Origin: Clarkia xantiana subsp. parviflora
Lineage: Eukaryota > Streptophyta > Magnoliopsida > Myrtales > Onagraceae
Reading direction: 5' to 3'
NCBI GenBank assembly: GCA_036873135.1
Contig: JAPTYO010000002.1
Coordinates: 35,455,452-35,519,451 of the forward strand
Length of the DNA stretch: 64,000 bases
The notes beneath the pieces are model-generated. The model did no database searches and had not been told where the DNA came from. It worked only from the letters and a program-made list of their open reading frames with translations. The position numbers and the translations under genes are program-made. This document shows, piece by piece, positions 12,988-50,498 of this stretch (the first letter of the stretch is position 1; the number at the start of each line of letters is the position of its first letter).

Positions 12988-13114
12988 TAAGAGTACTTCT
13001 AATCGTGAATTCCTAGTTCTTCCACGTCACCCGCTACGTCATTGCTAATTTATCAAAGTGGAACTGCTATAGTATAATTGGAACTCTCTCCAATGGTGGA
13101 GACCGAGTTCCACT

Positions 13115-15759: not shown

Positions 15760-15954
15760 GTTCCTACTAGTAGGAACTGTCCTAATTCACTACTCACTCG
15801 ATAATGGCAAAATATTAATATTTGTATGTCCAGTGGCGCCTACTGGCACCTAGTTGAAATTTTGGAACTAGGAACTCCTATTTTGAAACTAGAAACTCCC
15901 ATTGGAATGCCAAGTTACTAGTAGGAACCAACAGTAAGTGGAACTAGAAACTCT

Positions 15955-17633: not shown

Positions 17634-20160
17634 TTACTGACACATTACAAGCCTCCTAAACCCTACACAATGCAAGAATTTTGACGTGCATTTCGAAAAT
17701 ATCCCCGCGTAAAGTTTTGTCAATGGGTCTGCCACCATACTCTTAGAGGGCATGTATTCAATTCTGATCAACTTGTCTCCTACCATACTCTTCGCATAAT
17801 TGTATTTAACATCAATGTGTTTAGTCCTAATATGGTACTCAGGATTCTTAACTGCCCCTATTGATGCTTGACTGTCAGAGTAAATGCGCAAAGGCTTACT
17901 CCCGTCCTCGACGTCAAGCATGGCAGTCAAGAGTCTCTTTAGCCAGTCATGTTCCTGTGCATTCTTAGAGAGAGCTACGAATTCAAATTCTATCGTAGTC
18001 AGCGTGACACATGATTGCTTCTTGCTCATCCATGAAATGACGTCATTAACAAGGAGAAATACTCTTCATGAGGTGGACTTACGATCAACCGGATCACCAC
18101 CATGGTCAACGTCACTGTACCCCAGTCAATTCAAGCTTATTTCCCTAATTGCACAGTTCGTAGTCATCCGTACCTTTCTGATATCGAATAATTTGTTTCA
18201 CGGCCCGTAAATGTTGATAACTAGGGTCTGATTAGAAACGTGCTACTAAGCCCACAACGAAAAAGATGTCTGGACGAGTGCATTGCATGGCGTATATAAG
18301 ACTTCCTACCATACTGATGTACTCTGCACTTTTCATCTGTTCACGCTCAGCCTGGTCTTTTGGGCCCTCATACTTTGACAACGCACTCCCAAACACAACA
18401 TGCGTATCCACGGGTTTAGCATCGTAGAGATTGAACTTTCTCAACAATTTGTTGATATAAGCTTCTTGAGCAAGACATAGTTTACGAGAAGCCCGATCCC
18501 TAACAATCTTAATGCCCGGGATGTACGTGGCTTCTCCCATGTCTTTCATCTCAAATACAGATGCTAACCAATACTTGGATTCATTCAAATAACTAACATC
18601 GTTCGCGGAAATGAGTATTTCATCGACGTATAACATCAAGATAACATACTTCGACTCAGAGGTTTTTGTGTACACGCAGGGATCCTCGTGAGTATTCATG
18701 AATCTATTGCCAACGATTTCCTCGTGGAACCTGCGGTACCATTGCCGAGACGATTGTTTAAGACCATAGATCGAATTTGGAGTTTACAAACTTTACGTTC
18801 ATATCTAGGGGATATGAAACCCTCCGGTTGCTCCATGTAGATCTCTTCCTCCAAATTCCCATGAAGGAAGGCGGTCTTAACATCCATTTGGTGCAGCTCG
18901 AGATCGAGGCTTGCTACTAGGACCAAGATAGCCCGGACCGTGGTGTAACGCACAGTCGATGAGTACGTCTCATCAAAGTCGACTCCGTGGAGTTGAGTAT
19001 ATCCTTTCATAGATGCGATCTCTTCCTCCATTGCTCTTCTCCATTAATTTTATTGAGGTCCTTCCAAAGCTTGTTTAACCGTTACCGGTTCATCAACCAA
19101 AGTCAGAGTGAATAACCCACCCTTCTCGATGGGATACTTCTTAGGAGAAGCTCTTTTCCTTGACTACGACTATGTTCATTATTCCTATCTAGAACTACAG
19201 TCCCAATAGGATTAATTCTCCTACTAGGAACAACATTCCCACTGGGAATCAGGGTGTTACTTGAACCTTCACCTACAACTTTTCTTGGGCGACCTATTGG
19301 TCTCGGGATTCTACCTCCGAGATGAATTCCACGGTCACTTTGACCAGGAACCAAGTTGGTTGTCCCATTCCCACTGTTACCAGTAGGTATTTGAGGAATT
19401 ATAGTATTCTCATCCAACGGTTCAACAACATGATGATCAGGTTCTACTCGATTCGCACATGCATCAACTGTGATCTGTGTGGTTGGATTGACTCCTCACA
19501 CTAGATTTATCATGAAAATGTCTCCATTCTCATTTACCATTTCGTTCACTGGTGTTGCTGCCTCAAAATTCCACTCGAAATAAGTGGGACCTAACTATCA
19601 TCATCATGTTCTAGTTCTATTAATACTTTGTTTATTTTGATGCTACCAAGCTTAGGAAATTCATCCTCAAGAAACGTATCGTATCTGAACTCATGTTCGA
19701 CCACGCCACTATTCTCCTGAGCCGCCAAAAACACGTATCCCTTAGAGTTTTTGGAGTACCTAATGAAGATACTTTTCAGACCTCTCGGCCCCAACTCACC
19801 GAATCGGCTGTCGGTTTGATGCGTGTATGCTGCGCAACCCCAAGGTCGCAGCCAGGTAAGATCCATCTCTTTACTAGTCCACAGCTTATATGGTGTCGTG
19901 TCCACCGATTTTGAAGGAACAAGGTTTACTACATAAGTGGCAGTCAACAACGGATCACCCCAAAAGGAGATCAGAAGTTGAGCTTGCGATATTATGGTTC
20001 TAACCATGTCGAAGACGTGTATGATTAAGATGCTCCACCATACTGTTTCTGTAATGGCGTATTAGGGATCCTCGTTTGAAGGAAAATACCAATTTCATTA
20101 CGTACTCATTTTAGAGGTTTTGTCCACCTATGATCGTGCATTAGGTTATCACCTTTTGCT
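17634..20160 (-). pseudogene. Copia pol remnant: integrase end, reverse transcriptase, RNase H
   Basis: On the minus strand, in order: end of integrase (MVRTIISQAQLLISFWGD...LVPSKSV, about 20007-19591); a Pro/Gly/Ser-rich linker (19417-19103); RT start (DFDETYSSTVRYTTVRA...QMDVKTAFLHGNLEEEIY, 19031-18780); RT end with GSLIYAMQCTRPDIFFVVG (18699-18232); RNase H with the SKKQSCVTLTTIEFEF block (18029-17634). Frames change at least three times. The catalytic YVDD is YVDE here (near 18625), and no complete gag is found upstream. The upstream end of integrase (20008-20160) is decayed. The lineage looks Tork/TAR-like among plant copias; this is a judgement from motifs only. Confidence 0.88.
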
Positions 20161-22987: not shown

Positions 22988-25063
22988 GACAATAAGGTCC
23001 CACTTAATTCGAGTGGGCGAGATTTGAAACAACTCAAGTGAATGACATGGTAAATGAGAATGGGAACATTTTCATAGTAAATCCAGTGGGATGAATAAAC
23101 CCTACCACACGTAATCACTGTTGCTGTTGAGACGAATCAAGTTGAACCTGATGGTCATATAGCTAAACTAAGAATGACAGAACTACCTAAAATACCCATT
23201 GTTTCCAGTGGGAGTGAACCAACCATACTTGGTTCCAGATCCTAGTTATCAAGGAATGCATCTCTAAAGTAAAACCCCGAGACCAAGAGGTTGCCATAGG
23301 AGAGTTGCAAGTCAAGGTCCTAGCACTGCTCTTGTTCCCAATATAGACAATGCTTCGATAAGAAGCATTGTTCCGAGTGGGAGGATCGTTCCCAGCAGAA
23401 ATGATGCTACGATAAGAAGAATTATTCCGAGTGGGAGAAAAGATCAGACTAATAAAAGGGACTCGCAATGCCTAGACGAGAGTCAAAGGCAAGTAACCTA
23501 TTAAGTAAGGTATAAAACTGTTGACAAGCATTGGAAAGACCTCAAGTGGAGAAATGGAGGAAAATAATAAATGAGAGAGATCGCCTAAATGAAAGCCATT
23601 ATAGACTATAATTGATTTACCTATTAACCACATGAGAGCAAGGATAAGGTGAGCCCTGAAGTAATGCTCACCACTGATGGAAAAAAGGTCGAACAACCCG
23701 ACTTATTGCGAAAGGACTTACCCAATTCACGTAGTGGACTTTGATAAGAGAAACTCACTGACTGTGTGTAAAACCACGGTTAGAGCCATTAATGGTCCTG
23801 GTCGCAAGTCTCGATCCCGAGCTGCACCAAATGGATGTTAGGACCGCATTCCTCCATGAAAACCTAGAGGAAGAGATCTACATGGAGCATCTGGAGGGTT
23901 TCATTACTCCTGGCAACGAACTTAAAGTTTGTAAACTCCAAAGGTCCATCTACGGTCTTAAACAGTCGTCTTGGCAATGGTATCGCAGATTCTACGAGGA
24001 AATCGTAGGAAATGGATTCGTGAATCTTCACGAGGATCCGTGCGTGCACTATAAGACCCCCGGGTCCAAGTATGTCATCTTAACCTTATACGTGGACGAC
24101 ATACTCATTGCTGCAAACGACATGAGTTTCATGAATATGTCAAAGTCCTAGTTAGCATCTGTATGTGAGATGAAAGACATGAGAGAGGCTGCGTATATCT
24201 TAGGAATTAAAATTTCTAGAGATCGGGCTACTAAAAAATTGAGTCTTTCTCAAGAAGCCTATATCAACAAGCTGTTGAAAAGGTTCAAATTACAGGATAC
24301 GAAACCTGTGGATACTCCGGTAGTATTTGGGTGCGCACTGTCAAAATGTGACGTCCCCAAGAACCTGGCAGAGCGCGAACAGATGAAGGGTGCAGAATAT
24401 TTAAGCGTGGTTGGTAGTTTGATGTACGCCATGCAATGCGCCCGTCCGGATATCTGTTATGCCGTGGGCCTAGTAGCACGTTTCCAATCAGATCCTGGCT
24501 ATCAACATTTAAATGCTGTAAAACGAATAATTCGTTATCTGAAAGGTACTGCTGACTATGCTTTGTGCTATGAGGGCGGGAAGTTATAATTGACCGTTTA
24601 CAGTGACGCCGACCATGGTGGCGATCCGGATGATCGTAAGTCCACCACAGGGGGAGTGTTCCTCCTTGCTAAAGCCGCCATTTCATGGACGAGCAAGAAG
24701 CAAACTTGTGTCGCGCTGTCTACGATGGAATCAGAATTCGTAGCTCTCTCTAAGAATGCACAGGAAGCAGTCTGGCTAAAAAGGCTCCTTACTACGCTGC
24801 TTAATGGTGACGTCGAGAGTAAACCTGTGAAGGTGTTCTCTGACAGTCAGGCAGCCATTGCGGCAGTTAAGAATCCGAAGTACCATAGTAGGACCAAACA
24901 CATTGATATGAAATATTTTTATGCTAAATATATGGTAGAAGACAATATAATCACTATGGAATACTTGTCCACTGATAATATGATTGCGGACCCATTAACT
25001 AAACCACTAAGCAGGGAGATATTCGAAAAGAATGTAAAACTGCTTGGATTGTGTAGGGTTTAG
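22988..25063 (+). pseudogene. Copia pol remnant (plus): linker, reverse transcriptase, RNase H
   Basis: Begins within the integrase-RT linker (GTCCCACTTAATTCGAGTGGG at 22997 matches the linker of the element at 60690). RT is recognisable from 23792 (ASLDPELHQMDVRTAFLHENLEEEIY) with an intact YVDD near 24095, then GSLMYAMQCARPDICYAVG. RNase H follows (SDADHGGDPDDRKSTTGG...SKKQTCVALSTMESEF) to 25063. Two in-frame stops, TAG at 24149-24151 and TAA at 24587-24589, break what is otherwise one frame. Integrase, protease and gag are missing at the 5' side. Confidence 0.9.
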
Positions 25064-26201
25064 AAATGACATGGATCTGTGATAGCATTTTGTTATTAGA
25101 AAGTTACATTTTGTAAGTGAAATAATTGCAACAGAGTTTATGAACAATCGACGTCATAATATTTTGAATACATCAGATTTACGGTCTATAAACTAATTCG
25201 TAGGAGGACGCAATCCTCTGCCAAACTATGTCGAATGTGGGCCTTATCTAGTCATACATGTACGGTCGTCTTGTGATGGAGGGAGGCCTCCAACAAAACA
25301 AGACTGGCTAAGAGTCAGGGGGATAAACCTGATTAAGCGAGACGATTATCTAGTTTCTAAGTAACTTGACGTGATCTTCGTCTCGCATATCGCCGTGATG
25401 AACTTCGTTCGTCATTTAACCACATTCTGGGCCAGATGAGAATCTGTGATAGCATGATTGACATATCCCTTTCCTGTCAACCCAAAAAGTTCAGGTATGC
25501 TATCAACACGTGCTTCATATTACACGTTCCACGTTCGACCACTGGGTCACAGCTCGGTTGTGCTAGGAAGGAATCCTCGTGATTCTGGCGGGCCAAACTT
25601 CTTCACCTCGAGCGTGTGATTGATCCTAGGAGCCTTATGAAGAGGCACCCGAAGTATCCTCATGGACTCAGAACTCATACCTAAGGTCAGGCTCAATGCT
25701 CGCTTCCCGGCGTACGAGCGTAGTGCTGAACAAAAAGACCCAATGACCACGTCTTGGAAATCGGTTGGGTTTGACTAAAGGTATGAGCGATGGGGATGGT
25801 CAAGTTCACCTGTAATTCACCGATTCTTGTATTCACTAGGTGGCCGGCCACCAGCCGGATATTAGTTGAAGGTTGTGAATACTTGTACGGATGCCTTGGA
25901 GAAGTGTTCCTATGTGGAAACTAGGCAAATGGAGAATTATCAGTTGACCTAGGATACAACGCGGTACAATATGTAAATGTTGTTTATAACATGTTGATTA
26001 GAGGAAAGGGAATCAACGTTCTGCGCGCGCTACAATACTCCTAACATATGAGTAGCACGATGCTCGTCGTATCCGCCGGTTGCACGGCAAACCTCGTATG
26101 AACTATTCAGAAGAATGGAGCAGATCAAAGGAGAGAAATGTTGATGCAGATTTGGACAACAATACATTAACAGGCACCCTCCCATTCCGGCGAGTGGGAG
26201 C
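25064..26201 (+). other. Copia 3' untranslated region and polypurine tract (plus)
   Basis: Plus-strand counterpart of 16552-17633 and 57544-58624. It contains ACTAATTCGTAGGAGG, GGTCAGGCTCAATG, and TTAGTTGAAGGTTGTGAATA, and ends in the purine tract GGCGAGTGGGAGC (26189-26201) against the LTR. No ORF is conserved between the three copies. Confidence 0.75.
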
Positions 26202-26814
26202 TGTAAGCATATGGTGATGGGCGCCGTAATTGGTAGCCCATAATATGTATAGTTTACCTAATGAACTTGGGTAAATGTCACATTAGGGTAACTGGGCTAG
26301 ACCCAAATCCCAATTGACATGGGAGGCCCAAAATTGGGCCTCCCCAATTACATAGGCCGGCCGAACTAATAGTAAGGGTAAAGTTGACAATGTCCAGTTT
26401 TCTCCTCCTATAAATAAGAGGTGTTAGGGAAATTTTAGGGTTAATCATAATTCCCTCACAAGAGAATTTTAGAGAGAAAAACCCTCCTCCCACACCAAGT
26501 GTTTTGGTCGAACCACACAAGTCACCAAGGGTGTGCCAAATTGCTTTCGAGCAAACTCTCCAGAGATCTGTCCCCGTGCCGATAATCGATCAGATGCTTT
26601 GTTGTGGAGCTGCACCACGTAGGGCTTCTCTAACAAGAATCTCTACGGATCCCGTCCGGAGGATCGTGAACTTCCTCGAGCAAGGATCTTGGACTACGGT
26701 TACTTTTGAGGTATGTGTAAACTTTCCGCTGCGTAATTGATATTACTAGCATATACCATGTTTAAGTTTCCATAATTGATATTACTAGCACATATTACTC
26801 CCCGTAATCTAACA
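26202..26814 (+). mobile_element. Copia 3' LTR (plus), subfamily TGTAAGCATATGG
   Basis: Starts TGTAAGCATATGGTGATGGG after the polypurine tract and ends CCCGTAATCTAACA. A TATA-like CTATAAATAAGAG lies at about 26408. No primer-binding site follows, so this is the 3' LTR of the pol at 22988-25063. Confidence 0.88.
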
Positions 26815-28325
26815 AGCCCTAGGTTAGATCCGGCTAGGTTAATTGAAACCTAGCCCCCCTTAGGTCAAATAACAGTGTCACTAAGTAAATGTCGACACTT
26901 TCTTCAAATGCCGAGGAATATAGTGTCCCTAAGTTTTAGTGACCATTTATGCGGTGCCGTAACACACCCGTTGCGGCAGTTTTGAACAGTGTTGTTATGT
27001 TCTAAGCAGCAGCACTTATCAGAAGTGCCCTTATTATCGACACTTTAGTAAGTGCCACTAAGTTCAGACTAGCAGCACTTACAAAAGTGCCGTTATAATT
27101 TAAAAAAATAAAATATAAATCTCTGTATACATTTATAACAGTAATATGTTGTACATATAATACAAATCATCAACACTACAATATATATATATATAACATT
27201 TGTTGTCCATTTATGAATTCATAGTGACCAAAATAAATCTATACAGTAACAATCATTAGTGATCAAGTTAGACCTTTATACATACAATGACTATATTGCT
27301 TATAAATTATTAAGCATTAGTGCGGGTAGTTTGGTGAAGGAGATTGAGATACTCCATAAGCAAGAGTCCACTCAAATTGACCATTCTGGTGCATAAGAAG
27401 ACAATAAGCATCTTCTAGTGGCTGCAAGAACACAAGTGAAATTGTTTTCAAGGTATGAGCTTAATCAACCTGTGCAACTTGAACTTATTATTTGGTCAAG
27501 TCGGGCACGTAAAGATCATCAGTGGAGTGCCCACAAGGACCTATGCCACCCTACCATATATCCATTCATATAATAAATTAATGCATAGTTCTCAAACAAG
27601 AAACAACCAAAGATCAATTCATAAAAATCGATCACTTACTTCAAATAAGGTATCATTACAATTACCTAGAAAAATGAGGGCAAGATAGCATCTACCGAGC
27701 TCATTTCCGAGTGAGAATCAGAAGCAAGCAACAATCAAATTGAACACATGTAAGGCTTCCAGCCAAGCTAACAAGTTAGCTAGGCATCTAATTAGGGCTT
27801 GAAACTAATTGAATGCAGGCATCTATGAAATCATTCCAAGTAGCAATATTATTACCGTCAACTGCAAATCAGATGATGAGTGAGTAATTCGAAGAAATAT
27901 CAGTCTACGCTAAATCAAGAATTATTTATATTCTCATTTGCTTACATGGTGATGGAAGGGAAGATATTGGAACAGGGCCATGTACTGTGATGCACTGACT
28001 TTCCTAATCAAATTTCCCAAACTAGTCCAAGAGAACCTAAAACATTATATAATGTAGCATTTTGATTCTTTTTTGTCCAAGCCAAGCAATATGAGTGAAG
28101 AAGACACGGGTTATTGTATGTACGTACCTTAAGGGGAGTATAATTCAAAGAAGAATGAAAGACATTGATAATGTATAAGACCATAATTTTCTAATAATAA
28201 GTGGAAATCAGGATTCAGCTCCAAGGATCCTGCTTTCATATAACCACCAAGGATCTTCATTGCGTTTTTTATCATGCTGCAGTGAAGATCTTGAAGAAAA
28301 ATGTAGATCTACCGTACCTGGTCGG
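26815..28325. mobile_element. CACTA-like subterminal region and unrecognised sequence
   Basis: 26870-27110 holds many short direct and inverted copies of words such as GACACTTT, AGTGCC, GCAGCACTT. This is the style of CACTA (En/Spm) subterminal repeats. Similar words recur at 38930-39330, beyond the Tat and hAT insertions, suggesting one split element. 27120-28320 has no recognisable protein; GACCAG/GTACGGTAG on the minus strand at the Tat insertion point would make a good splice donor. The CACTA terminus is not visible; the copia LTR may have replaced it. Confidence 0.4.
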
Positions 28326-29015
28326 TGATGGGTTTCGACATAGCCGTTAGGCCCATTGACGACGAGTAAACGGTGAAATAGGCCCACTGGGCTCCGAAAG
28401 AGGCTTAGAGGACTAATGCGAGGAGTCCCGACAAGGTCGGTCCCGACATATGAGCTATACGCTCCCGATGTTATGCCTTTAAGTAGGCCCCGATGTTATG
28501 CCTTTAAGTAGGCCCCGATGATATGCCTTTGAGTAGGCCCCGATGATATGCCTTTGAGTAGGCCCCGATATTGAATCCCTGAGAATATTGGCCCTGTCCC
28601 GATGACGAGGGGCCCTGAGCGGTGACCAAAGGAGATAACTCTGGAGTCCCCGACATCCGTCGGGACTTACCACCAGAGGACGAGGCCGAGAAACACGCCC
28701 ACTATCAGCGTAGTGGGAAAGTGGCCTGAAAAGACGGAACGTGGGCTACTGGCCGAGATAAACGTAACGTGGCAGTTATCTCAACAGGTAACTGAGGTAA
28801 CCCCTCCCCTATATAAATGAAGGAGTTACCTCGGGATTGATACGTTCATACATTCATATACTGATACTTGCTTGCCTACATCGAGATACTCATTTAAGCA
28901 TCGGAGAGGGATTCTGGGTCACCGCCCGGTCTATCCCCTTCTTGCAGGATTACTTGGAGCAAAGGAGTTCGGACTTCCGTCAAGAACGTACCGGAGTTCC
29001 AACCGTGATCCAACA
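28326..29015 (+). repeat. 5' LTR of the Tat element
   Basis: 690 bp, TGATGG...CCAACA. Holds four tandem copies of a 25-bp unit (CCGATG(T/A)TATGCCTTT(A/G)AGTAGGC type, about 28466-28566), whereas the 3' LTR has three. A TATA-like CTATATAAATGAAGG lies at 28810. By eye it differs from the 3' LTR by 12 substitutions, the 25-bp unit and one single-base indel. Confidence 0.93.
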
Positions 29016-29033
29016 TTGGCGCCGTCTGTGGGA
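29016..29033 (+). promoter_or_regulatory. Primer-binding site of the Tat element
   Basis: TTGGCGCCGTCTGTGGGA directly after the LTR, a form common in plant Ty3/gypsy Tat elements. The minus-strand Tat copy has a decayed version at 43600-43583 (TTGGCGTCGTCCGTGTGA). Confidence 0.85.
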
Positions 29034-29069
29034 ACGTAACGAAAAGCAAAGATAGCTTCTACCCAATCG

Positions 29070-30590
29070 ATGGCTGGCAAGCATAAGAAGAAACAAGGAC
29101 AATCCGGCGGTTCCCGTCATCCTGCTGGAACCCTGAATTCAGAGCTGCCGGAACACAGTGTCGATCGGAATGATCCTCTCCCCGCTGGTTCCCAAACAGG
29201 GGGGCATCATGACAATCGCGAGGATTCCGTTCGAAACTCGTCGGAGGACAGGGAAGAGGTCCCGAGGAGGGACCAGGATGCTCCTACAAAGGTGGATTTG
29301 ACGAAGGCTATGATGGATGCCATGCCGATATTCTTGGAGACTATGGAGGCTCTCCTGGACCGAAGGGAGGCTGCCAAGAAGAAGGAGGAGGAGTTGCCTC
29401 CGCCCCCACCGAGAGAGAATTGGGACGGGCAGGAGGCCCAACCCGAGCACCAGGACAAGGGCAAGGAGCCTGCCCTATCGGAGCAGTTCGTGGTCGATGG
29501 GCCTGGACCGGTGCAACATAGGACCATCCCTCTCAATGACCCTATCACCCCCGACCAAGTGGTGAAGATCGTGAACATCTGTATGGGGGACCAGAAGAAG
29601 ATGATGTCGGAGCTGAGGGATCGATCCACTCATCCCTTTGTTCCCCGATTGGTGAACACCACTGCCCCACCGGGACTGGGTATCCCGACAATCAAGGAGT
29701 ATGATGGCGAGGGAGATCCAGTTCGTCATGTCCAGAAGCATGTCATGGCTTGTCTAGGCAGGGCCCCGAATGACGATATAGTGTGCGTTCTGTTCCCAGG
29801 CACACTTGGTGAGAGGGCCCTGACGTGGTTCTTCAGCCTTCCCCCAGGGTGCATCTCTAGCTGGACCCAGATGCATGATCGCTTCATCCAGCAGTACCAG
29901 GGCCGTCGACGTCTCCTGAAAAGCGCGAGGTCCCTGGCTGAAGTGGTACAGAGGCCCGACGAGTCGCTGGCGCATTACTATCAAAGGTATACTGCCAGCG
30001 TGGCCGAGATTGATGAGGAGTTGTCGGAGGGAGAGACCATCCGCACCTTCATTCGGAACCTGACAGCACCATATGGTTCCGACCTGATGCACAGCGTGGC
30101 TGAGAAGGCTGTGTGGAACATGGAGGCGCTGCAGAAGAGGGTGAAGCAGCAAATCGACGTCCAGGAGTCGAAGATAGCTGCCGGAGACCTCGATCCTCCA
30201 AAATCAAACAAGGGTAAGCAGTCGTTCAAGCCCTCGGACGATCGCAGGAGAAAAGATAAACCCGAGAATAGTCGGGGTCGAGGCCGCTCCGATCGGAGGG
30301 AAGACAAGCCTCTCTCGAAGTCGGACAAGCGGGAGGACCGTTACACTCCTCTCATTTGCTCTATGGGCGCTGTGTTGGCGGTGATGGACCGACAGGGTAT
30401 CACCAGGTACCCCCCGAAGAAGGATGGAGAGTTCATGGGAGCCCGCACCGATCGTTATTTTCGTTTCCATCGCGCCAGCGGTCACGACACTAACCATTGT
30501 CGGGAGCTGAAGAAGGAGATTGAGAAGCTGATCCAGAAGGGGAAGCTCAAGGAATTTGTGGCTGGACAACGGGGCCGATCCCGTTCCTGA
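29070..30590 (+). CDS. Tat gag polyprotein (capsid and nucleocapsid)
   Basis: 506 aa from an ATG 55 bases after the LTR. Residues 1-130 are charged and low in complexity. A retrotransposon gag (capsid) domain spans about 205-330, with PTIKEYDGEGDPVRHVQKH, RALTWFFSLP and SLAHYYQRYTASVAEI. A basic Arg/Lys/Asp-rich stretch lies at about 370-425. A zinc-knuckle-like block RYFRFHRASGHDTNHC starts near residue 462; the first Cys of the usual Y-C-x-F-H is Phe here. The frame ends at TGA (30588-30590) inside an Arg-Ser repeat and continues in the same frame with more Arg-Ser, so the stop looks like a CGA-to-TGA mutation in a longer gag-pro frame. The protein would form the virus-like particle. Confidence 0.9.
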   Translation: MAGKHKKKQGQSGGSRHPAGTLNSELPEHSVDRNDPLPAGSQTGGHHDNREDSVRNSSEDREEVPRRDQDAPTKVDLTKAMMDAMPIFLETMEALLDRREAAKKKEEELPPPPPRENWDGQEAQPEHQDKGKEPALSEQFVVDGPGPVQHRTIPLNDPITPDQVVKIVNICMGDQKKMMSELRDRSTHPFVPRLVNTTAPPGLGIPTIKEYDGEGDPVRHVQKHVMACLGRAPNDDIVCVLFPGTLGERALTWFFSLPPGCISSWTQMHDRFIQQYQGRRRLLKSARSLAEVVQRPDESLAHYYQRYTASVAEIDEELSEGETIRTFIRNLTAPYGSDLMHSVAEKAVWNMEALQKRVKQQIDVQESKIAAGDLDPPKSNKGKQSFKPSDDRRRKDKPENSRGRGRSDRREDKPLSKSDKREDRYTPLICSMGAVLAVMDRQGITRYPPKKDGEFMGARTDRYFRFHRASGHDTNHCRELKKEIEKLIQKGKLKEFVAGQRGRSRS

Positions 30591-30955
30591 TCCCGATCGC
30601 GGTCTCACTCCCGATCCCACGATCGGTCCCCGAAGAAGGATAAGCCCGAGTCTTCCAATGCCCGCAGGGAGAAGCGGGGAACCATTAATGTGATTCATGG
30701 AGGACTTGCTGCAGGAGGAGATACCACGACATCTCGGGAGGTCTATGTTTATCGGATTCCTATCGCTGTGGTGCTGGGCAAGAGGGCCCGAACCTGGACT
30801 CCGAAGCAAGAGATGGTGATTCCCTTCTCAGCGGAGGACCTGATAGGAGTGGAGACCCCGCACGATGACGCTTTGGTCGTGACCCTGAATGTGGATGGGT
30901 ACGAGATGAAGCGAATCTTGATAGATGGAGGGCTAAGCCCGACACGGATCGGATC
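30591..30955 (+). pseudogene. Tat protease remnant, truncated by deletion
   Basis: Same frame as gag. Shows INVIHGGLAAGGDTTTSRE, then SAEDLIGVETPHDDALVVTLNV and RILIDGG, which is the start of the retropepsin active site (usually VDxGSS). The family continues SADIL and then into reverse transcriptase. Here the sequence passes within about 30 bases into the integrase zinc-binding domain. The frame runs on to a stop at 31013 but its last residues are integrase sequence read out of frame. Confidence 0.82.
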
Positions 30956-30964
30956 CTTAGGGAG

Positions 30965-32011
30965 GTGCACGAAGGATACTCAGCTTGTCATGAAGGTGCC
31001 CGATCCATCGTGAGGAAAGTGCTGAACCTGGACTATTACTGGCCGTCGATGAACAAGGAGGCAACGATGCTAGTGCGATCCTGTGACGCTTGCCAGAAGT
31101 ACGCCCCGAATATCGTGGCTCCCGCTGCCGATCTGACGTCCATCAAGAGTGCTTGGCCCTTCGCTCAATGGGGAATCGACTTGGTGGGACCCCTTCCAGT
31201 GGCAAAAGGTCAGTGCCGATATTTAATTGTGGATATTGATTATTTCTCGAAATGGATAGAAGCTAAGGCATTGGCCAAGACAACGGGGAACCATATCCTC
31301 AAATTCCTCCAAACCCATATTGTATCCCAATACGGGATCCTCAAGGTGGTGATCAGTGATAACGGCTCTCCGTTTAACGGGGCCCAGTGGAAGGAGTACT
31401 TGGAGGAACTGAAAATTGAGCATCGGATAGCCTCTGTCCATCATGCTCAAACCGATGGACAAGTGGAGTCAGCCAACAAGATCGTGATGGACGGCCTGAA
31501 GAAAAGGGTCCACGCCTTAAAGGGCAAATGGCTGGACGAGCTGGAAAATGTGCTTTGGGCTGTTAGAACAACACCCAAACGATTGACCGGGGAGACTCCG
31601 TTTGGCCTTGTTTATGGCACGAAGGCAGTTGCTCCCGTCGAAATAGCTGTGGCATCCCATCGGACGAGGTATTATGAACATCTGTCGAATGATGAAATGA
31701 GGCGTCTGGACTTGGACTTGGTCAAAGAGAAGAGGCGGAGTGCCGAGGAGGCCCAGGCTCGGATGCGCTTGGCAACAGCCCGATATTATAATCGACGAGT
31801 CAAGTCTCGACAGTTCTTTGTCGGGGAACTAGTCTGGCGTCGGAACGAATTTACCCTTTTGGATCGGATCAACAAGATGTCACCAAAATGGGAAGGGCCT
31901 TATAAGGTCGTGGGGATGCCAGCTCGAAACGCGTATAAGTTGGAAGACCTCGATGGCAATGTGTTGAAGCATTCTTTTAGTGGCGAACACTTGAAGAAAT
32001 GTCATGCTTGA
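30965..32011 (+). CDS. Tat integrase (detached from pol by deletion)
   Basis: 348 aa. HHCC zinc-binding domain with H2, H9, C40, C43 (MHEGYSACH...SCDACQ). Catalytic core with D72 (WGIDLVGPL), D132 (VISDNGSPF) and E168 (DGQVESANK), spaced D-x35-E as required. The C-terminal part has GELVWRR and WEGPYKV, like the GPY/F module of Ty3 integrases. The catalytic residues are intact and the frame is open. The ATG at 30965 is simply the first Met; the coding sequence probably ran in from upstream pol before the deletion. It is followed within 5 bases by the tandem array. Confidence 0.88.
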   Translation: MHEGYSACHEGARSIVRKVLNLDYYWPSMNKEATMLVRSCDACQKYAPNIVAPAADLTSIKSAWPFAQWGIDLVGPLPVAKGQCRYLIVDIDYFSKWIEAKALAKTTGNHILKFLQTHIVSQYGILKVVISDNGSPFNGAQWKEYLEELKIEHRIASVHHAQTDGQVESANKIVMDGLKKRVHALKGKWLDELENVLWAVRTTPKRLTGETPFGLVYGTKAVAPVEIAVASHRTRYYEHLSNDEMRRLDLDLVKEKRRSAEEAQARMRLATARYYNRRVKSRQFFVGELVWRRNEFTLLDRINKMSPKWEGPYKVVGMPARNAYKLEDLDGNVLKHSFSGEHLKKCHA

Positions 32012-32015
32012 TATT

Positions 32016-32235
32016 AAGTCGCCTTCAGTGGTGCAAGTTGTTTGTTAAGTCGCCTTCAGTGGTGCAAGTTGTTTGTTAAGTCGCCTTCAATGGTGCAAGT
32101 TGTTTAATAAGTCGCCTTCAGTGGTGCAAGTTGGTTGTTAAGTCGCCTTCAGTGGTGCAAGTTGTTTATTAAGTCGCCTTCAGTGGTGCAAGTTGTTTAT
32201 CGAAGTCGCCTTCAGTGGTGCAAGTTGTTTATCGT
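32016..32235. repeat. Tandem array, 31-bp unit, 7 copies
   Basis: Unit AAGTCGCCTTCAGTGGTGCA plus AGTTGTTTGTT. Copies start at 32016, 32047, 32078, 32109, 32140, 32171 and 32203, differing by one or two bases. It lies directly after the integrase stop. Confidence 0.95.
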
Positions 32236-32322
32236 TTTGAGTCGATATAAATAGGTTTTGAGCCATCAATGAATAAAGAGGTTGCTTCCGACCAGATTGT
32301 GCTTAGACTTATCATTCTAAGT

Positions 32323-32660
32323 ATGCTTCAATCGCCTTAAGTGGTGTAGATAAATCGCCTTAAGTGGTGTAGTTAAATCGCCTTAAGTGGTGTGGTTCCG
32401 CCTTGAGTGGCGCGGTTCCGTCTTAAGTGGCGCGGTTTCGCCTTAAGTGGCGCGGTTTCGCCTTAAGTGGCGCGGTTCCGCCTTAAGTGGCGTGATTAAA
32501 TCGCCTTGAGAGGTGTGGATAAATTGCCTTAAGTGGCACGATTAAATCGCCTTAAGTGGTGTGGGTAAGATGTCTTAAGTGACGCGTCGAAATCACTCTA
32601 AGTGTTATGATCGAATCGCCTTAAGTGGCGTGGTTAATTCACCTTAGGTGGTGCAGAGAT
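32323..32660. repeat. Second tandem array, 17-23-bp unit, about 15 copies
   Basis: Core TCGCCTTAAGTGG(T/C)G(T/C)GG with variable spacers. It shares the core CGCCTT-A/C-AGTGG with the 31-bp array, so one probably arose from the other. Copies in the middle (32400-32500) are the most uniform; those at the right end are decayed. Confidence 0.88.
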
Positions 32661-32807
32661 AATCGGAACCAAAATAGATTGATATTATAAAGATCTAAAA
32701 GGTTCACGACAAAAGAAGGAAATTACAAGGATTCGAAAATAAAGCGATTAAGCTTGATCCTTGGCAGCGTCGAGGGGAGCAGGGTCCACGAGGTCTGTAG
32801 CAGAAGG

Positions 32808-35662
32808 CTACGCGGTCGGAGGATCGGATCCTGGAAGATTGGCCGCGGGAGGATCGGACTCTTGGAGGTCAGCTAGTGAAGGGTCGATCATCGGGGGATC
32901 AGTTGTCGGGAGGTCTGCACTTAGAGGCTCCACTATACCTTCAGCACCCGCAGCCCCCTCGGGGGTGTTGGCCCCGTCGCTCTCCTCGGAAAGGATGAAA
33001 TACCTCTCCGCGAAGGGGGCGAGAGTCTGAGACTTGGTGAAGTCGATGGCACCACCATACTCCAGATGGAGCTCCTCGACAGCATTAAGCAAGGTGGTCT
33101 CCACCTCCGCCGTACAGAACTTCACCGCGTCCACTTGGAAAGCCTCGGAGCCCCGATAACCTTCCCGACCCTTGGCCTCAGCCTCCGCCAGCTTGGTGGG
33201 AAACTCAGCGAGTTCCCGCTCCATCTGTTGAGACCGATTGGCGAGAAGGACTTCCTCAGCCTCCAGCCCCGCCTTGGCGTCCTCAAGGGCCTTCTTCTCG
33301 AGGACAAGCCTATCCCGATCCTCCGCGCGCCCCTGTTGCTCTTCCTGGAGCTTTTTCCGCTCCTGCTTCAACAACCGCTCAAAGTCGTGGACCTGCCTCA
33401 GAAGGTCCCGAGTCTTCTGGTTAAGGAGGGCCTGCTCCTTAACCAGCTTGCCCCTCGACGATTCGGAGGCGGCCAGATCCTCCTTGAGCTTGGCCAAGAC
33501 CTCGGGGGCCGCCTTGGCTCGCTCCTGCTCCAGGGCCTCCCCCAGGGCCAGGATGTACCCGAAACAGCGGTGTTGGTCCGCCATTTCCTGTAAAGAAGAA
33601 AGGAAGAAGTCAGTACACGAGAATATTTTTGCCTTATATACTAAGTGTAAAAACAGGAAGCCTTACCTCCACACGACGAACGGCCATGCTGCGAATGTCC
33701 TCGTGGATGTCCTCCCGAGCCAAGGAGAGCGGAAGCTTCAGAGACGGCGTAACTGAACCTGCCAGCAGGTGCAGACCCAGTTCCGGTGATATATTGTCCC
33801 GACGCAGCGGGACCTCCCGCAATGACTCGATCGGGGTCCAGGGAACCGCCGCCTGGTCGGGGGTGTAGATTTGATAAAAACTCCCGTCTAAGGGGAGAGG
33901 GGGAAGGAAGACCTGAGTGTCGGAGGTGCGGGCCTCCGAGCCGCCATGAGAACCCGTCGTCCCTTCAGGAGTCAGGCTCAAGACCCGCGAAAGCTGCTGT
34001 GCCGGAGAAGATGGAGGCAGCCCTTCGGGAGTTGGCTCCAACGGGGTCTGCCTCGCCCCCCGACGACGAATCAGGGGCAGGCCTTCGCTCACCTCCTCAA
34101 AAGAGTGAGAAACATCCAGATCAACCACCCGATGGAACTGACCGTCCGTCGGGGCGTCTTCAGTCCCCGATCCTCCTGGGGCTGGAAGAGAAAGGAGGGG
34201 CTCTCCGACCCGGGCGTCGGAGGGTGGCACCCCGCCGAAGCTCCAACTCCCGATTGACCTGCAGCTGGAGGACGAGAAGCTTCGGAAAGAAAATCAGGAA
34301 GTTGGTCGGGATCCTTACACCAAATGACGCGACGGGAGAGATACTGGTCCTTCTCGTAATAATTGTAATAACCCGCTTTAAGAATGCGGGGAGTTTCTCC
34401 TTGCAGGATGCGTTTGATCCCTTCGATCCTGGCTCCCCTATCAGAGGGGGGGATACACCTCCTGTATAATCGAATTGCTAAGCGGAGCTGTTTACCTTCT
34501 TCGGGAGTCTTGGTGTTGAAGATCTGCTCCATCTTCTCCACCCGGGCCCGCTTGATCTGCTCCGAAGTTGGAGGTGCCGATGAGGAGGCGGCCCTCTTCG
34601 AAGACTTCCTATTCCTCGCGGGACGTTGGACAGCATCGGTCTCCGCCTGCTTAAGCACGAGATTGGTCAGCAATGATACCTTCTTAGCTGCAAAAACGAA
34701 AATGAAAATGCAATTAGGATATTACCCAAGGAACGAGGTTGGAAGGGCCGTCGAAGAGTTGACCCCCGGAGGCGACATCAAGGAGTCGTATCCGGTCAGA
34801 ACCAGGTCCCTCTCCCCGATGGAGTTGGCATCGAGGGGAGCGAAGGAATCCCCCCAGCGATAAAGTTGGATGCAGTGGGGAATCTGGAAATCCTCCTCGG
34901 AGTAAGTGTGAAAAGCGGGAGCAGGGTCTGCTTCAACCTCCCATCGGGTTCACGGAATAGAGCTGTTCCGGATGAAGAAGTAATTCTTCTTCCAGCCGCT
35001 GTTGTCGGGCCCCGAGTCAGTGATGAGCCCCCGACCTTTGGCGACCTTCCAGGTGTCACCATTCCAGCTGTACCGAGAGAGCTACGCCTTGCTCCATTTA
35101 GGCATCCGCGGGTAGAAGGCACAGACCCCAGCATCATTGTATTTCATCCCGTAGAAGGTCCGGAAAAGTCGGAGGCTGTAGGTCCACTGTTGGCGAAAGC
35201 AGAGAACAAGGAAGGCATTCCACACACGGATGGCGTGGGGGGAAAAGTAGTCGGACGTGTTTTATAATATTCACACATCTCGACTAAATTCCCACAGAAG
35301 GGGAATCGGATCCCCGCCGATACTTTCCCGGCGGAGATAAACACCTACCCTTCCCGGGGACGAGTGACTACAGGGTTACCCGGGAGGTGAGGGTGAGGAA
35401 AAGGGAAGCGAGGCTCCCAGGTGGAAGTAATACATCCCTCTCGGAGAGCTGCATCATAGGCGGTTTCTGAAATCTCATTACAAGCATAATCGAACTTGAA
35501 GGGCTTCCTCCCCCCGGAACTGGACTCACCGTCTGGAAAATAATCATGGCAAGAAAAGGCACAGCTGATTTCCGCAAAAGTTCGGGTAAGTTGATTGAGA
35601 TAAAAGGAAAAACTATGCTAACAAGTTTCTTCGGAATCGAAGGAGGAAATCTTACCAGACAT
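32808..35662 (-). pseudogene. Tat antisense multi-exon gene (aORF), coiled-coil protein
   Basis: Opposite in strand to gag-pol. The likely start is ATGTCTG at 35662-35656, spliced across 35655-35535 (GTAAGA...TTTTCCAG) to give MSDGESSSGG in frame. Next comes a conserved globular part: AGIRFPFCGNLVEMCEYY; then, in a shifted frame, SPHAIRVWNAFLVLC and LRLFRTFYGMKYND. This is the kind of sequence databases call putative gypsy-type transposon domain. A basic/Pro-rich segment (34687-33667) follows. The 79-nt intron 33666-33588 (GTAAGG...TTTACAG) joins in phase 0 to the last exon (33587-32808), which is a long Glu/Lys-rich coiled coil ending in DPP repeats. Disrupted by TAG near 35360, a frameshift near 35265, two stops at about 35090 and 34955, and a frameshift near 34230-34300. 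Function unknown. Confidence 0.75.
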
Positions 35663-36161
35663 GTTGAATCGGAGAAGAAATGATGATCTCGATGGTCGGA
35701 GATCCTGGTCGCCGGAGTGTTGATCAGAAAAAGAAAGGAGAGCTTGAGCTTTTGAAAACACAGAGAATGAAACGGTAGAGGAGAACTGAATAGTGCCAAG
35801 ATTTGGGGTTTTATAGGAGAGAGGACAGCCAAAGAGACGTTGCAATCCGGACCGTTGAAGATGAAACGCCTCAACCTGAATCGTCGAAACACTAGAGACA
35901 AAACGGCTAGATAGTGCTTTTTCAGAAAAAACAAGCACGGGTACCCAAGCCGTCGCTTCGTCACCTGCTGCATTTAATAGTTGAGTGACCGAGAAATCTT
36001 TTCGGATTCGGTGGTTATCCTCGGAATATCGGAGAATCTTGGAGAAGGAGATCTGCTTCAAAAGATTTTTCCGTAAAGTCGAAAGCCTCCGATACCGATG
36101 TCGGGAGGTCTAGAACTGGAAGACACGACGAACTGTAAGTCCCTCGTGTCTTGGGGGCAAA
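35663..36161. other. Tat region between antisense gene and 3' LTR, with polypurine tract
   Basis: Should hold the promoter and 5' UTR of the antisense gene. On the minus strand, TCCTATAAAACCCC near 35815 is a good TATA-like box about 150 bases upstream of the proposed ATG. The plus-strand polypurine tract TTGGGGGCAAA (36151-36161) ends it. The overlapping minus-strand frames are not conserved. Confidence 0.6.
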
Positions 36162-36825
36162 TGATGGTTTTCGACATAGCCGTTAGGCCCATTGACGACG
36201 AGTAAACGGTGAAATAGGCCCACTGGGCTCCGAAAGAGGCTTAGAAGACTAATGCGAGGAGTCCCGACAAGGTCGGTCCCGACATATGAGCTATACGCTC
36301 CCGATGTTATGCCTTTAAGTAGGCCCCGATGTTATGCCTTTAAGTAGGCCCCGATGATATGCCTTTGAGTAGGCCCCGATATTGAATCCCTGAGAATATT
36401 GGCCCTGTCCCGATGACGAGGGGCCTCGAGCGGTAACCAAAGGAGATAACTCTGGAGTCCCCGACATCCGTCGGGACTTGCCACCAGAGGACGAGGCCGA
36501 GAAACACGCCCACTATCAGCGTAGTGGGAAAGTGGCCTGAAAAACGGAACGTGGGCTACTAGCCGAGATAAACGGAACGTGGCAGTTATCTCAACAGGTA
36601 ACTGAGGTAACCCCTCCCCTATATAAAGGAAGGAGTTACCTCAGGATTGATACGTTCATACATTCATATACTGATACTTGCTTTCCTACATCGAGATACT
36701 CATTTAAGCATCGGAGAGGGATTCTGGGTAACCGCCCGGTCTATCCCCTTCTTGCAGGATTACTTGGAGCAAAGGAGTTCGGACTTCCGTCAAGAACGTA
36801 CCGGAGTTCCAACCGTGATCCAACA
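36162..36825 (+). repeat. 3' LTR of the Tat element
   Basis: 664 bp, TGATGG...CCAACA, followed by the TSD copy GTCGG. Three copies of the 25-bp internal unit. About 98% identical to the 5' LTR over aligned bases by my hand count. Confidence 0.93.
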
Positions 36826-36830
36826 GTCGG

Positions 36831-37226: not shown

Positions 37227-38880
37227 TAGGGCCGGCAATGGTGCGGTGAAAATCAAATAACCATGGTTATTCGCACCATTTACCGCAATGGTTAACCGCA
37301 CCATTATGGTGAGGGGCGGTTATGGTGATGAATCTTGTAACCGCAATGGTTATGGTTGTGGTTATGGTATCCAGTCTATAATCGCGGTTATAACCATCAC
37401 ATGTATATATAATATATATATATATATACATTACTAATACCTATATTGTTATATATATACACAATAACCTGGGAGAGGTCTGAAGATTGGCCCTTGTGAA
37501 TTTGAGAGGTCTGAAGATTGAACTGGTGATAACAGAGGTCTGAAGTTTCGACTTGTAGATAATAGAGGTCTCCGTTAGTTTTTTCCGTTAAAACTAACGG
37601 AAGTTGGTCATGTGCATAGCATGCGACCAGAAAAAATTTCCAAAAATACCCTTCTTGCATCTCACATGATTGAATGAAAAGACAAAAATGCCCTTAAGAC
37701 CACCACCCAACTCCGGCGACCGCCACTCCCAGCTCCGGCGACCACCACGGCTTCGGCCGGCCACCACCCAACTCCGGTGACCACCACTCACGACTCCGAC
37801 GACCGCCACCAAACTCCGACGACCGCCACCACGGCCCCAATTGGGCCCAAATCGGAGCCACCGGCCCCGATAGGGCCCAAATCGGAGCCACAAAGCTCCG
37901 ATCGGAGCTCGGTGGCTCCGATTTGGGGCCACAGAGCTCCGATTTGTGGCTCTGTGGCCCCAATTTGGAGCTTTGTGGCTCCGATCTGGGGCCACAGAGC
38001 CCTAAATCGGAGCCACCGAGCTCCGATCGGAGCTTTGTGGCTCCAATTTGGGCCCAATCGGGCCCGGTGGCTCCGATTTGGCCCCAATTGGGACCGTGGT
38101 GGCGGTCGTCGGAGTTTGGTGGCGGTCATCGGAGTCGTGAGTGGTGGTCGCCGGAGTTGGGTGGTGGCCGGAGTTGGGTTAGGTTTAAATTATGGACGGG
38201 GGTATTTTTGTCATTTCATCTTTATATTAATTAAACTTTTTTTAATTAAAATATTACAAAAGGGTATTTTTGACATTTCATGCGGTTCTGTTAAATTTAA
38301 CAGAAAATTTGGACGGAAAACCTAAAAATAACAAAGTCCAAACTTCAGACCTCAGTTATCACAATTTCAATCTTCAGACCTCTCAAATTCACAACGGTCA
38401 ATCTTCAGACCTCTCCCAGGTTATTGACCCTATTATTATACTTTAATTATTATTCAAATATTATAATTCTTATCCCGTTCCATTTCCCACCCGCCATTTT
38501 TTTGTCTATATTTCTTATTATTAGGTAACCACGATTGTAAGTGATGGCGAATGAGGATCGATGATCGCAAGTGATAGCCAATTGAAGATGTGTTTTTTTA
38601 ATTGAGTAAAACAATGAAGTTATATTTATTTGGATTTCGTGTATGAAACAATGAATGTGTATTTACTTTTCTTGTATGAAACAATGATGTTGTATTAGTT
38701 TGAATGATTGTGGTTAAATGGTTTAATCGTGGTTAAAAACCATGGTTATGGTTATGGTTATGGTATGAAGAATCATAACCGCAGTGGTTATGATTATGGT
38801 TATGGTATGAGTGAAAAAAAATATAGTATGGTTATGGTATTAGTGCTATTCGCACCATACCATCACCATCGCCAGCCCTA
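37227..38880. mobile_element. hAT non-autonomous element, perfect 8-bp TSD
   Basis: Ends TAGGGCCGGCAATGGTG and CATCGCCAGCCCTA. The 8-bp duplication TTTTTAAG flanks it exactly (37219-37226 and 38881-38888). Subterminal zones are dense in GGTTATGGTTATGG on the right and matching inverted words on the left. 1654 bp, of which about 965 bp are a nested foldback element. No transposase. Confidence 0.9.
37462..38426. mobile_element. Foldback element nested in the hAT element
   Basis: Arms: CAATAACCTGGGAGAGGTCT at the left and its inverse at the right. The text (GAGGTCTGAAGATTG repeated three to four times) is matched inverted at 38340-38426. The core (37690-38170) is also an inverted repeat, GC-rich, built of CTCCGATTTGGGGC-type words that read as Pro/Arg/Ser-rich peptides in every frame. 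Those frames are by-products of the repeat, not genes. TSD not determined. Confidence 0.75.
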
Positions 38881-44481: not shown

Positions 44482-46041
44482 CTATGAAGAAGTAGCCCTA
44501 TGGCCAACAATACATGGTGAAAAGCATCGAAATACAGGGCGACTAAGAGACGGTTTGAAGGATGTGAAGAAATCGGGATTGTGGTTGAGTGACTCTGTGT
44601 AGCCTTCAAGAATAAACACTATCTCGTCAAAATGAGGCCGTTTTTTGGGATTAGTCGACCAACAACGACATATGAGTTGTTTAAATGCTGCGGGACATTG
44701 GGGCGGTAGTGGGGGCCTAGCATTCTGCAACATAAGAGGAAGAACACAGCATGAACATTCATAAATCTAAATAATGAATGGTTTACATTTTGTAGGTATG
44801 GATGAGATAATTTATTTATAGGTACCTTTTGACAGACTGCAAAGGCGGCTTGTTCGGGAGTCATATCATGGAAGGGTGTCAAAGCGGTGAAAAGCTCCCA
44901 CAAAACAATGCCGAAGCTATAAACATCGACCTTCTTAGTATGGTGTTTGTCGTTGATCATCTCAGGGGCCATCCAACGGTAAGTGCTGGTGAATCCCTTG
45001 GAGTTGGAGGTCTTGAGCTGGGATTCCAGGCATGAGATTCCAAAGTCTGCAACCTTAACAACCATATCTTGGCCGAGCAGGAGATTCTCAGACTTGAGAT
45101 CCCGGTGAAGGATGCCTTGGGAGTGAAGGTATTGCATCCCATGGGCAATGTCTAGAGCTAGTTTGAGGACTAGGTTGAGTGGGAGTGAGTAAGGCTGTTG
45201 TTGGTGTAGGTATTTCCTCAGTGACCCTCCACACATGTACTCCATTATGATGCAGAACACTGGTGCTTTCTTGCATGCTCCAACAAACTGCACTTACACA
45301 ACCACCAGCTAGCTCATATTCTTCTTATCAAACACAACAACAATACTGCTTGCTAGCTGCATACTTAATTTGTCAAATTCAGCACTGAAAAGATTCTGCA
45401 TTCCTTTATTGAGAATAATTAAAATTCAAAATTAGGTGGCAAAATCACAATAATACTTCCTTGATGTAACAAACCCGAAAATCATGTGAACAATTTCATA
45501 AGACAAATATGCATGCCCTAAACCCATCTCCGTCCGATTCAGAATTCTTTAAAAACTGCAACTTTAATGTAGGTATGAGTTGACTTACAGTGATGATATT
45601 AGGATGGTTCAAGCGGAAAAGCAGAGCAACCTCGGAAGTAAACTGCTGCTCCAACAAGACAGCTAAATCCTCGTCTTCCTCAGGCTGGCTCACAATCTTA
45701 ATAGCCACATCCCTCTGCTTGTACATTCCTCTGTAGATCCTGCTATGCCGCCCTGACGCGAATTTGCTTCCTATGAAGAGCTCCGACATGTCGGCGCTCC
45801 ACCCAGCCTCACCTTCCCCTTTGATCGCCGCCCCGTACGAAACCAAGTACTTGGACCAAGATACTGCCCTTCTGTACTCTCCCAGTGACAGCCTCCTCCC
45901 CAATTTCCCATTGTTGGAGATTTGCTTAAACAACTGGAATTTCTTCATACCCAACCTACTAATGCTGCACACACTGCTTTTTCTATCCTTCTTCAACCTA
46001 AAAACTTCAACTTTCGGTCCCTGTATAAGTAAGAGTGACAA
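44482..46041 (-). CDS. Raf-like (group C MAPKKK-type) protein kinase
   Basis: Three coding exons: 46041-45589, 45287-44826 and 44724-44482. All are joined in phase 0 at canonical sites (ACT/GTAAGT, GTGCAG/TTT; AAG/GTACCT, TTGCAG/AAT), giving 385 aa. Features: glycine loop IGSKFASGRHSRIYRG (90-105), VAIK lysine K115, alpha-C glutamate E137, HRDLKSEN with D214, DFG at D232, and MAPE at 257-260. The C-lobe ends with RCWSTNPKKRPHFDEI, and a short 40-residue tail follows. Every catalytic motif is intact. The WSADMSELFIG lead-in and K-S-E-N catalytic loop are typical of plant Raf-like group C dual-specificity kinases, some of which act in stomatal CO2 and ABA signalling; which one this is cannot be said. 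The start is uncertain: TTATACAG/GGACC just inside the frame looks like an acceptor, so the true first exon may lie upstream, with Met32 another candidate. Confidence 0.9.
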
Positions 46042-50110: not shown

Positions 50111-50498
50111 ATATCTCAGATCAGCTACAAGCGTGAACTCAAAGAAGCCGTTCGAACAACCTAACCTGCAAAAGCAGATAACAACTTGATCAGCGCACGT
50201 GTATGTGACAACTACCTATACGAGCACTAAGCAACAAACAATCTCCACATGGAGACAACCACATATCTATAGACTTGTTAGTCTCTATACATCACATAGC
50301 GAACATCCCCCTAAGGGGGCAACTCTATGTCGACATGGGTCTCGTCCCGACACTTACGTGCGTTATGCGATCTACGCGCGACTACATGACACTATGCCTT
50401 TTCTTAAGGTAACAAGTGTGAATATGATCATAGCACTAACGTCTATACTTGCATGTATCTTCTAATAAATACAGGTCTACCACATGTATATTGGTATC
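50111..50498. other. Upstream part of the Tat antisense gene
   Basis: On the minus strand GCTTTTGCAG/GTTAGG near 50170 looks like an acceptor that would open the exon containing the ATG at 50110. No coding sequence is otherwise supported. It borders the 62-bp array. Confidence 0.4.

Follow-up and report, generated by a model that had tools for sequence, protein, structure and literature searches.

A probable multi-exon gene antisense to gag-pol in an LTR retrotransposon of Clarkia xantiana

Introduction

Introns are normally erased by reverse transcription. Can a long terminal repeat (LTR) retrotransposon, then, carry a protein-coding gene with several introns on the strand opposite gag-pol? 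The question is raised by a 64,000-nt stretch of the Clarkia xantiana subsp. parviflora genome (contig JAPTYO010000002.1, positions 35,455,452 to 35,519,451 of the forward strand; hereafter ‘the window’), in which an LTR retrotransposon occupies positions 28326-36825, with the 5-bp duplication GTCGG on both sides. An earlier note, made from the letters alone, had claimed a spliced antisense gene inside this element. Here we follow up this claim in the window and in the host genome (695.6 Mb, 59 contigs). We confirm the antisense intron-bearing gene of the window, with corrections to its coordinates, and conclude that between pol and the 3′ LTR the element very likely bears a protein gene of several exons in antisense orientation, its splicing being predicted from sequence. 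Beyond what had been noted, exons 2 and 3 of the window copy are broken, there is a probable third intron (34725-34647, referred to below as intron 2), and most of pol is missing.

Results

Splice signals of the antisense gene

The predicted gene (Table 1) opens with ATGTCTG (35662-35656) followed by GTAAGA; joined to ACGGTGAGTCC, it gives the peptide MSDGESSSGG. The donor and the peptide of this first intron were as originally claimed, and it is only the acceptor end, placed at 35535, that has to be moved: the intron ends at 35533 and is 123 nt long. The other intron of the earlier note, 33666-33588 (79 nt, GTAAGG...TTTACAG, phase 0; here intron 3), is as described. Left unspliced, it brings in an internal stop; spliced, it leads into 259 codons and a stop (33587-32808). 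For this last exon AlphaFold, run on the single sequence, predicts a helix over residues 2-142, with block means of up to 98, a mean predicted local distance difference test score (pLDDT) of 73.4 and a predicted template modelling score (pTM) of 0.34.

Splice sites were scored with plant matrices that are approximate and untrained. The donors of introns 1 and 3 are the top two among the 153 GT dinucleotides of the 3.46-kb antisense stretch; among its 218 AG dinucleotides the acceptors at 34688 and 33588 are the top two (33588 being second) and the intron-1 acceptor is fifth. Of 500 dinucleotide-shuffled sequences, 3 contained a pair scoring at least as high as 33666-33588 and 37 a pair scoring at least as high as 35655-35533; two donors as good were found in 18 of the 500, and two acceptors matching 33588 in strength in none. 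When both strands of the 64 kb were scanned for pairs (donor cut-off 5, acceptor cut-off 4.5, length 65-200 nt), 10 passed, introns 1 and 3 included, and the sole pair with a GC content at least 10 points under both flanks was 33666-33588. A stop-free run of at least 260 codons arose in 21 of 500 shuffles, making open reading frame (ORF) length alone weak evidence. Intron 2 yields no clean donor-acceptor pair by score.

Introns in relatives of the element

Our first probe for intron 3 was biased towards copies that keep the intron: all 40 scored places (window included) covered at least 294 of the 301 nt of the probe, the other 39 at 93-98% identity. Both intron-3 splice sites are kept in 10 of the 10 close copies that we read, with indels in the exons of none and in the intron of seven, some of them probably shared by descent. 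We also used an exon-exon probe without the intron and took the best-scoring 40 of 2,500 candidate places, again including the window. Intron 3 lies between two matching halves in 38 of these, and the remaining two (L081 and L082) match straight through. The latter are imprecise deletions with different breakpoints, which took the 5′ part of intron 3 along with exon bases and spared some of the 3′ splice site; we considered these two places as copies of spliced mRNA and dropped the idea, the deletions being imprecise. Precise loss of intron 3 was seen at 0 of the 40 scored places, and acceptors scoring at least 5 over the whole element number zero on the sense strand and three on the antisense strand; both observations fit the suggestion of the earlier note that the splice signals are invisible in sense RNA.

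For intron 1, L024 holds a member of the same family (integrase 87% identical) from which the body of the antisense gene has been deleted and in which its start is kept: a TATA box, ATGTCAG before the donor GTAAGG, the acceptor TTTCAG before AC, and exon 2, its frame unchanged. The intron sequence between donor and acceptor is poorly conserved. Across positions 2442-3859 of L024 the antisense gene retains its predicted promoter, exon 1, intron 1 and the start of exon 2, and the rest is gone. Both splice sites are also kept in L082; the region is unaligned in L081. Of the 10 close copies fetched, eight align here: the ATG and the donor are found in seven of the eight, the donor being lost in one, and the acceptor in six of the seven copies that reach it. 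Conservation of GT-AG ends among diverged copies is thus seen for intron 1 (L024, L082), and for intron 3 in close copies only.

The position of intron 2 was approached through the reading frames of 11 relatives. Up to the donor at 34725, phase 0 is the longest open phase in 8 of 11 (286 codons in L082), another phase being longer in L081, L062 and L063. Past 34688, phase 0 closes within six codons in 9 of 11; past 34647 it is open in the nine relatives in which the site was found, although short pieces are often open in other phases as well and the clear case is L081 alone (97 codons versus 2 and 68). The donor-acceptor spacing is 79 nt in L081 and seven close copies and 80 nt in L065, and the motif was not found in L063 and L082. 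At 34688 itself, 9 of 9 aligning close copies (10 fetched) retain the T-rich stretch and the CAG. Three other candidates were rejected: a 38-nt intron (34725-34688), which is too short and does not fit the phase; an intron of 76 nt with its donor at 34763, since in 8 of 11 relatives no phase stays open up to 34726 for longer than phase 0; and a 34-nt site (34495-34462), where the straight frame is under constraint. Intron 2 is therefore probably 34725-34647.

Coding constraint on the predicted exons

L081 and L082, which were found by the exon-exon probe and are about 13% diverged from the window, allowed us to estimate the ratio of non-synonymous to synonymous substitution rates (dN/dS); codons with gaps or stops were excluded, and two window stops fall in the exon-2 part. 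Against L081 and L082, respectively, dN/dS is 0.08 and 0.08 for the exon-2 part (35240-34800), 0.12 and 0.09 for the first and 0.29 and 0.28 for the second part of exon 3, and 0.17 and 0.22 for exon 4. In all four exon segments third-position changes are in excess in the predicted frames. For the TRP28 exon (see below), all 28 pairs whose dS lies between 0.03 and 1.2 have dN/dS below 1 (median 0.31); these pairs share sequences and come from frames open over at least 190 codons (21 of 40 loci). These substitution patterns show that the predicted protein has been under purifying selection in lineages that keep copying.

Exon 2 and the TRP28 family in the host genome

Of 11,371 first-look candidates for TRP28 (Transposase_28, PF04195) in the host genome, 150 places were scored. 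Forty loci were fetched: L011-L030, picked mainly for the absence of stops, and L031-L050, the best-ranked remainder with or without stops. Both exon-2 pieces of the window copy match 20 of 20 of the Pfam-positive loci L011-L030, adjacent and in order, and exon 2 is therefore, as judged by homology, TRP28, broken in the window copy. In the Pfam comparison suggested by the earlier note, the homologues exceed the PF04195 cut-off in 20 of 20 loci, and the window pieces themselves have no match. At 8 of these 20 loci an opposite-strand gag or integrase lies at most 4 kb away (in L024 the nearby integrase goes with a second element at the locus); gag is on the same strand in L019, and gag and integrase are absent from the fetched stretch in 11 of 20.

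In a protein database, neither the joined E3b-E4 peptide nor the one-frame translation (X at stops) had a match at E ≤ 0.001, which we attribute to divergence or to the limits of word matching: the database does include plants, as judged by the search with the window integrase (136 homologues at E ≤ 1e-10, top identity 57%). Scans of viral contigs returned no relative. Of two scans of genome contigs, the first returned none and the second only L001 and L002 (bacterial records, integrase-like, 26% identity), which were not used.

Intron-like sites in other TRP28 families

On the gene strand of the 40 TRP28 loci, positions 1250-3200 contain 33 intron-like sites of 60-86 nt, spread over 25 loci. 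The other strand has one such site, in one locus; reversed sequence gave two, and local block shuffles gave a mean of 2.5 and a maximum of 7 (20 runs). Grouped at 70% DNA identity, the loci form 12 families, 10 of which have such sites; at 80% they form 18, of which 12 do. In eight of the first 20 loci the site joins, in phase 1, frames open over at least 45 codons on both sides, an alternative phase being also possible in L019, L022 and L025. Five of the 40 loci (L021, L025, L035, L044 and L045) resemble the window in having a coiled-coil-like exon immediately after a phase-0 site, in a scan of phase 0 alone that was made without a null.

Anatomy of the element and its surroundings

The LTR pair is 98.2% identical over 664 aligned sites, with 26 gap columns and a Kimura two-parameter (K80) distance of 0.018. 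The gap between the gag and integrase ORFs is only 374 nt, and reverse transcriptase and RNase H are therefore missing. Integrase is followed by two tandem arrays, the antisense gene and the 3′ LTR; this region between pol and the 3′ LTR (32012-36161) measures 4,150 bp. Both it and the LTRs (690 and 664 bp) lie inside the published Retand ranges of 2,933-6,566 bp and 315-1,194 bp, respectively, and the two arrays agree with the presence of tandem arrays in this region of about half of Retand elements (PMC11963269). The antisense TRP28 ORF that typifies Retand between pol and the 3′ LTR is recognised here through the exon-2 matches to the Pfam-positive loci. The best reading of the element, from its anatomy and the antisense TRP28, is as a Tat-type, Retand-like Ty3/gypsy retrotransposon, in a copy without reverse transcriptase and RNase H. 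The primer-binding and polypurine-tract roles given in Table 1 are ones we take these segments to have.

Table 1. Predicted features of the retrotransposon and its antisense gene, in window coordinates
Feature	Position	Strand	Basis or remarks
Target-site duplication GTCGG, left	28321..28325	.	Sequence
5′ LTR, 690 bp	28326..29015	+	LTR-pair comparison
Presumed primer-binding site region, TGGCGCCGTCTGTGGGAAC	29017..29035	+	Sequence
gag ORF, 506 aa	29070..30590	+	PF03732, E 6e-13
Integrase part of pol (H2C2, rve)	30965..32011	+	PF17921, PF00665
Two tandem-repeat arrays (31-nt, then 20/23/46-nt)	32012..32656	.	Between pol and antisense gene
Putative 3′ untranslated part of antisense gene	32660..32807	-	TTGTAA at 32728, possible poly(A) signal
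Antisense exon 4, 259 codons + stop, long coiled coil	32808..33587	-	AlphaFold helix; dN/dS
Intron 3, 79 nt, phase 0	33588..33666	-	GTAAGG...TTTACAG
Antisense exon 3	33667..34646	-	Frame broken in window copy; dN/dS against L081/L082
Intron 2 (probable), 79 nt, donor GGGTAATAT	34647..34725	-	Frame of most relatives
Antisense exon 2 with TRP28 domain	34726..35532	-	Pieces match 20/20 Pfam-positive TRP28 loci
Intron 1, 123 nt, phase 1	35533..35655	-	Splice scores; sites also in L024, L082 and close copies
Antisense exon 1, ATGTCTG, 7 nt	35656..35662	-	First ATG past TATA box in window copy
TATA box (TATAAAA) of antisense gene	35809..35815	-	Inside element, outside LTR; also in L024
Presumed polypurine tract	36151..36161	+	Sequence
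3′ LTR, 664 bp	36162..36825	+	LTR-pair comparison
Target-site duplication GTCGG, right	36826..36830	.	Sequence

Some 0.9 kb past the 3′ LTR, about 415 nt (37757-38171) match their own reverse complement at 87%, in the manner of a palindrome. Further away, the window contains a tandem array at 50495-51023 (62-nt unit, 8.5 copies, 91% matches) and dense direct and inverted repeats of about 30% GC at 8322-15954, possibly nested small DNA elements. Three stretches (16150-19008, 23710-26609 and 57134-59991) are mutually 74-78% alike, with Ty1/copia-type RVT_2 matches within or beside them. On the minus strand, an intact 649-aa ORF with tetratricopeptide repeats (5757-7706) is likely a host gene, and a protein kinase domain across two ORFs (44619-46041) is likely a host kinase gene or pseudogene.

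Discussion

The claim of a spliced antisense gene in a Tat element is supported by coding constraint, by splice sites kept in relatives and by similar introns in other families. We propose that transcription would start near 35815, at the internal TATA box, and run against gag-pol to about 32670. Where the gene is unbroken, the mRNA left by removal of introns of 123, 79 and 79 nt would encode a protein of ~860 residues, with the TRP28 domain at its N terminus and the coiled coil at its C terminus. The RNA that a retrotransposon replicates is its sense transcript. The introns of the antisense gene would be present there as reverse complements and stay unspliced; because splice signals are unreadable in this orientation, the introns could survive retrotransposition. 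The likeliest role of the product would be that of an oligomeric nuclear accessory factor aiding transcription of the element or a nuclear step of its cycle, since nuclear localisation and DNA binding have been published or predicted for relatives (see below).

Several observations weigh against this reading. The antisense gene of the window copy is decayed: exon 2 has three in-frame stops and frame changes, and with exons 2 and 3 broken and most of pol missing, this copy is unable to encode the full protein. Its broken exon-2 pieces have no Pfam match to Transposase_28 (PF04195) over the cut-off, and exons 3 and 4 matched none of the 20 TRP28 loci of other families by tblastn. In both L081 and L082 a single stop interrupts the first exon-3 part compared, and L024 has an additional ATG between the TATA box and the start. 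Around intron 3, the 10 close copies are equally diverged in exon (93 changes in 2,220) and intron (33 in 782), and their exon changes are spread evenly over codon positions (34/29/30), that is, without constraint at this level; this would be expected if, as we infer, copies mostly drift after insertion. The acceptor chosen for intron 2 is the one favoured by the frame of most relatives, and the best-scoring acceptor is a different one, 34688. According to the earlier note, intact copies reading straight through the introns would count against the gene: intron 3 is present at 38 of the 40 places, and in L081, one of the other two, the frame seems to run on without intron 3 after an imprecise deletion. 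Finally, the exon 3-exon 4 junction scores 53 against L021, inside the range of shuffles (mean 36, maximum 66 of 300), and homology of intron 3 across families therefore rests on position and phase only.

A further such point, that no intron-like site passed in 15 of the 40 TRP28 loci, is also what one would expect if the AT-rich segments were decayed non-coding spacers between separate antisense ORFs, with coincidental GT-AG ends. This alternative would equally accommodate the lack of a clean donor-acceptor pair for intron 2. We nevertheless consider it very unlikely: splice sites are kept across copies, the sites recur in 10 of 12 families (33 against about 2.5 expected), their lengths fall in the narrow range of 60-86 nt, and at part of the loci they are flanked by open frames in a consistent phase. 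That the element family picked up a fragment of a host gene only recently, with introns left in place through lack of time, is a shade less likely still. Capture in reversed orientation would indeed bring introns along, and these would go unspliced from the sense RNA. However, the 150 scored TRP28 places among 11,371 candidates, the 12 DNA-level families formed by the 40 fetched loci and the presence of antisense TRP28 in 97% of Retand clusters of eudicots and Liliopsida (PMC11963269) show that the gene is old in the lineage; it may have been captured in ancient times. Least probable of all, in our view, is that the antisense RNA itself is the useful product (as double-stranded RNA, small interfering RNA or through transcriptional interference), with the ORFs a mere by-product. 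Silencing can be set off, or replication disturbed, by antisense RNAs made from LTR elements (PMC7264820, PMC12786077), but such a function would not account for dN/dS of 0.08-0.29 in the antisense frames, nor for values below 1 in all 28 TRP28 pairs. We thus retain the antisense multi-exon protein gene as the explanation.

Whether this extends to Retand as a whole is, in our judgement, evenly balanced: its antisense ORFs (TRP28 and an SMC-like coiled coil) would together make up a single gene of several exons, taken up in reverse orientation as genomic DNA, whose introns have been carried through deep plant history since the genomic RNA never exposes them to splicing. If true, Retand would offer an example from nature of genes that pass through reverse transcription with their introns, and surveys built on ORFs would have split the gene into pieces. 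By keeping several introns through its opposite-strand position, such a gene would show how a retroelement may house an ordinary nuclear gene, promoter and introns included; and if a single protein comprises TRP28 and the coiled coil, work on what the antisense ORFs do has dealt with fragments of it. The proposal predicts that antisense transcripts of many plants are spliced and begin a short way inside the 3′ LTR.

That plant Tat elements have extra antisense ORFs, as the earlier note stated, is borne out by the published TRP28 ORFs of Retand, for which DNA binding has been predicted (PMC11963269). Antisense TRP28 ORFs being already known, the new part would be that these ORFs belong together and have an exon-intron structure. 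The window gene resembles the Retand TRP28 ORFs in its position between pol and the 3′ LTR, its orientation, TRP28 itself, the tandem arrays, and the sizes of the LTRs and of the region, and differs from them as surveyed in that TRP28 and the coiled coil are here predicted exons of one intron-containing gene (PMC11963269). The Vicient 2025 survey set a minimum of 600 bp for the uninterrupted ORFs that it listed, waived for those with TRP28 (PMC11963269); uninterrupted ORFs, of 250 codons, were also used in another survey (PMC6317226). The word ‘intron’ is absent from the main text of PMC11963269 and from PMC7264820. Our literature search found no report of introns in Retand-type antisense genes; the primary literature on Silene Retand, Grande gene23 and extra ORFs lay outside this search, so a prior description is possible.

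Grande gene23, RIRE2, Silene Retand and PvRetro13 have antisense genes in the same position as the window gene (PMC7264820). Transcription of gene23 is driven by a promoter upstream of the gene and its protein, GENE23, is nuclear; ORF2 of PvRetro13 contains an SMC domain (PMC7264820). Introns go unmentioned in this review's account of the four, in contrast to the intron-bearing gene proposed here, and the review calls for a search for antisense and spliced transcripts (PMC7264820). Introns in plant LTR elements are themselves known from Ogre and EVADE (PMC12786077, PMC6317226). Unlike those, the introns of the window element are antisense. The HBZ gene of human T-cell leukemia virus type 1 (HTLV-1) is spliced. 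It too is an antisense gene of a reverse-transcribing element (PMC11963269), a likeness of working only, and it differs from the window gene in its host and in its antisense promoter, which lies within the 3′ LTR (PMC7264820) rather than at an internal TATA box.
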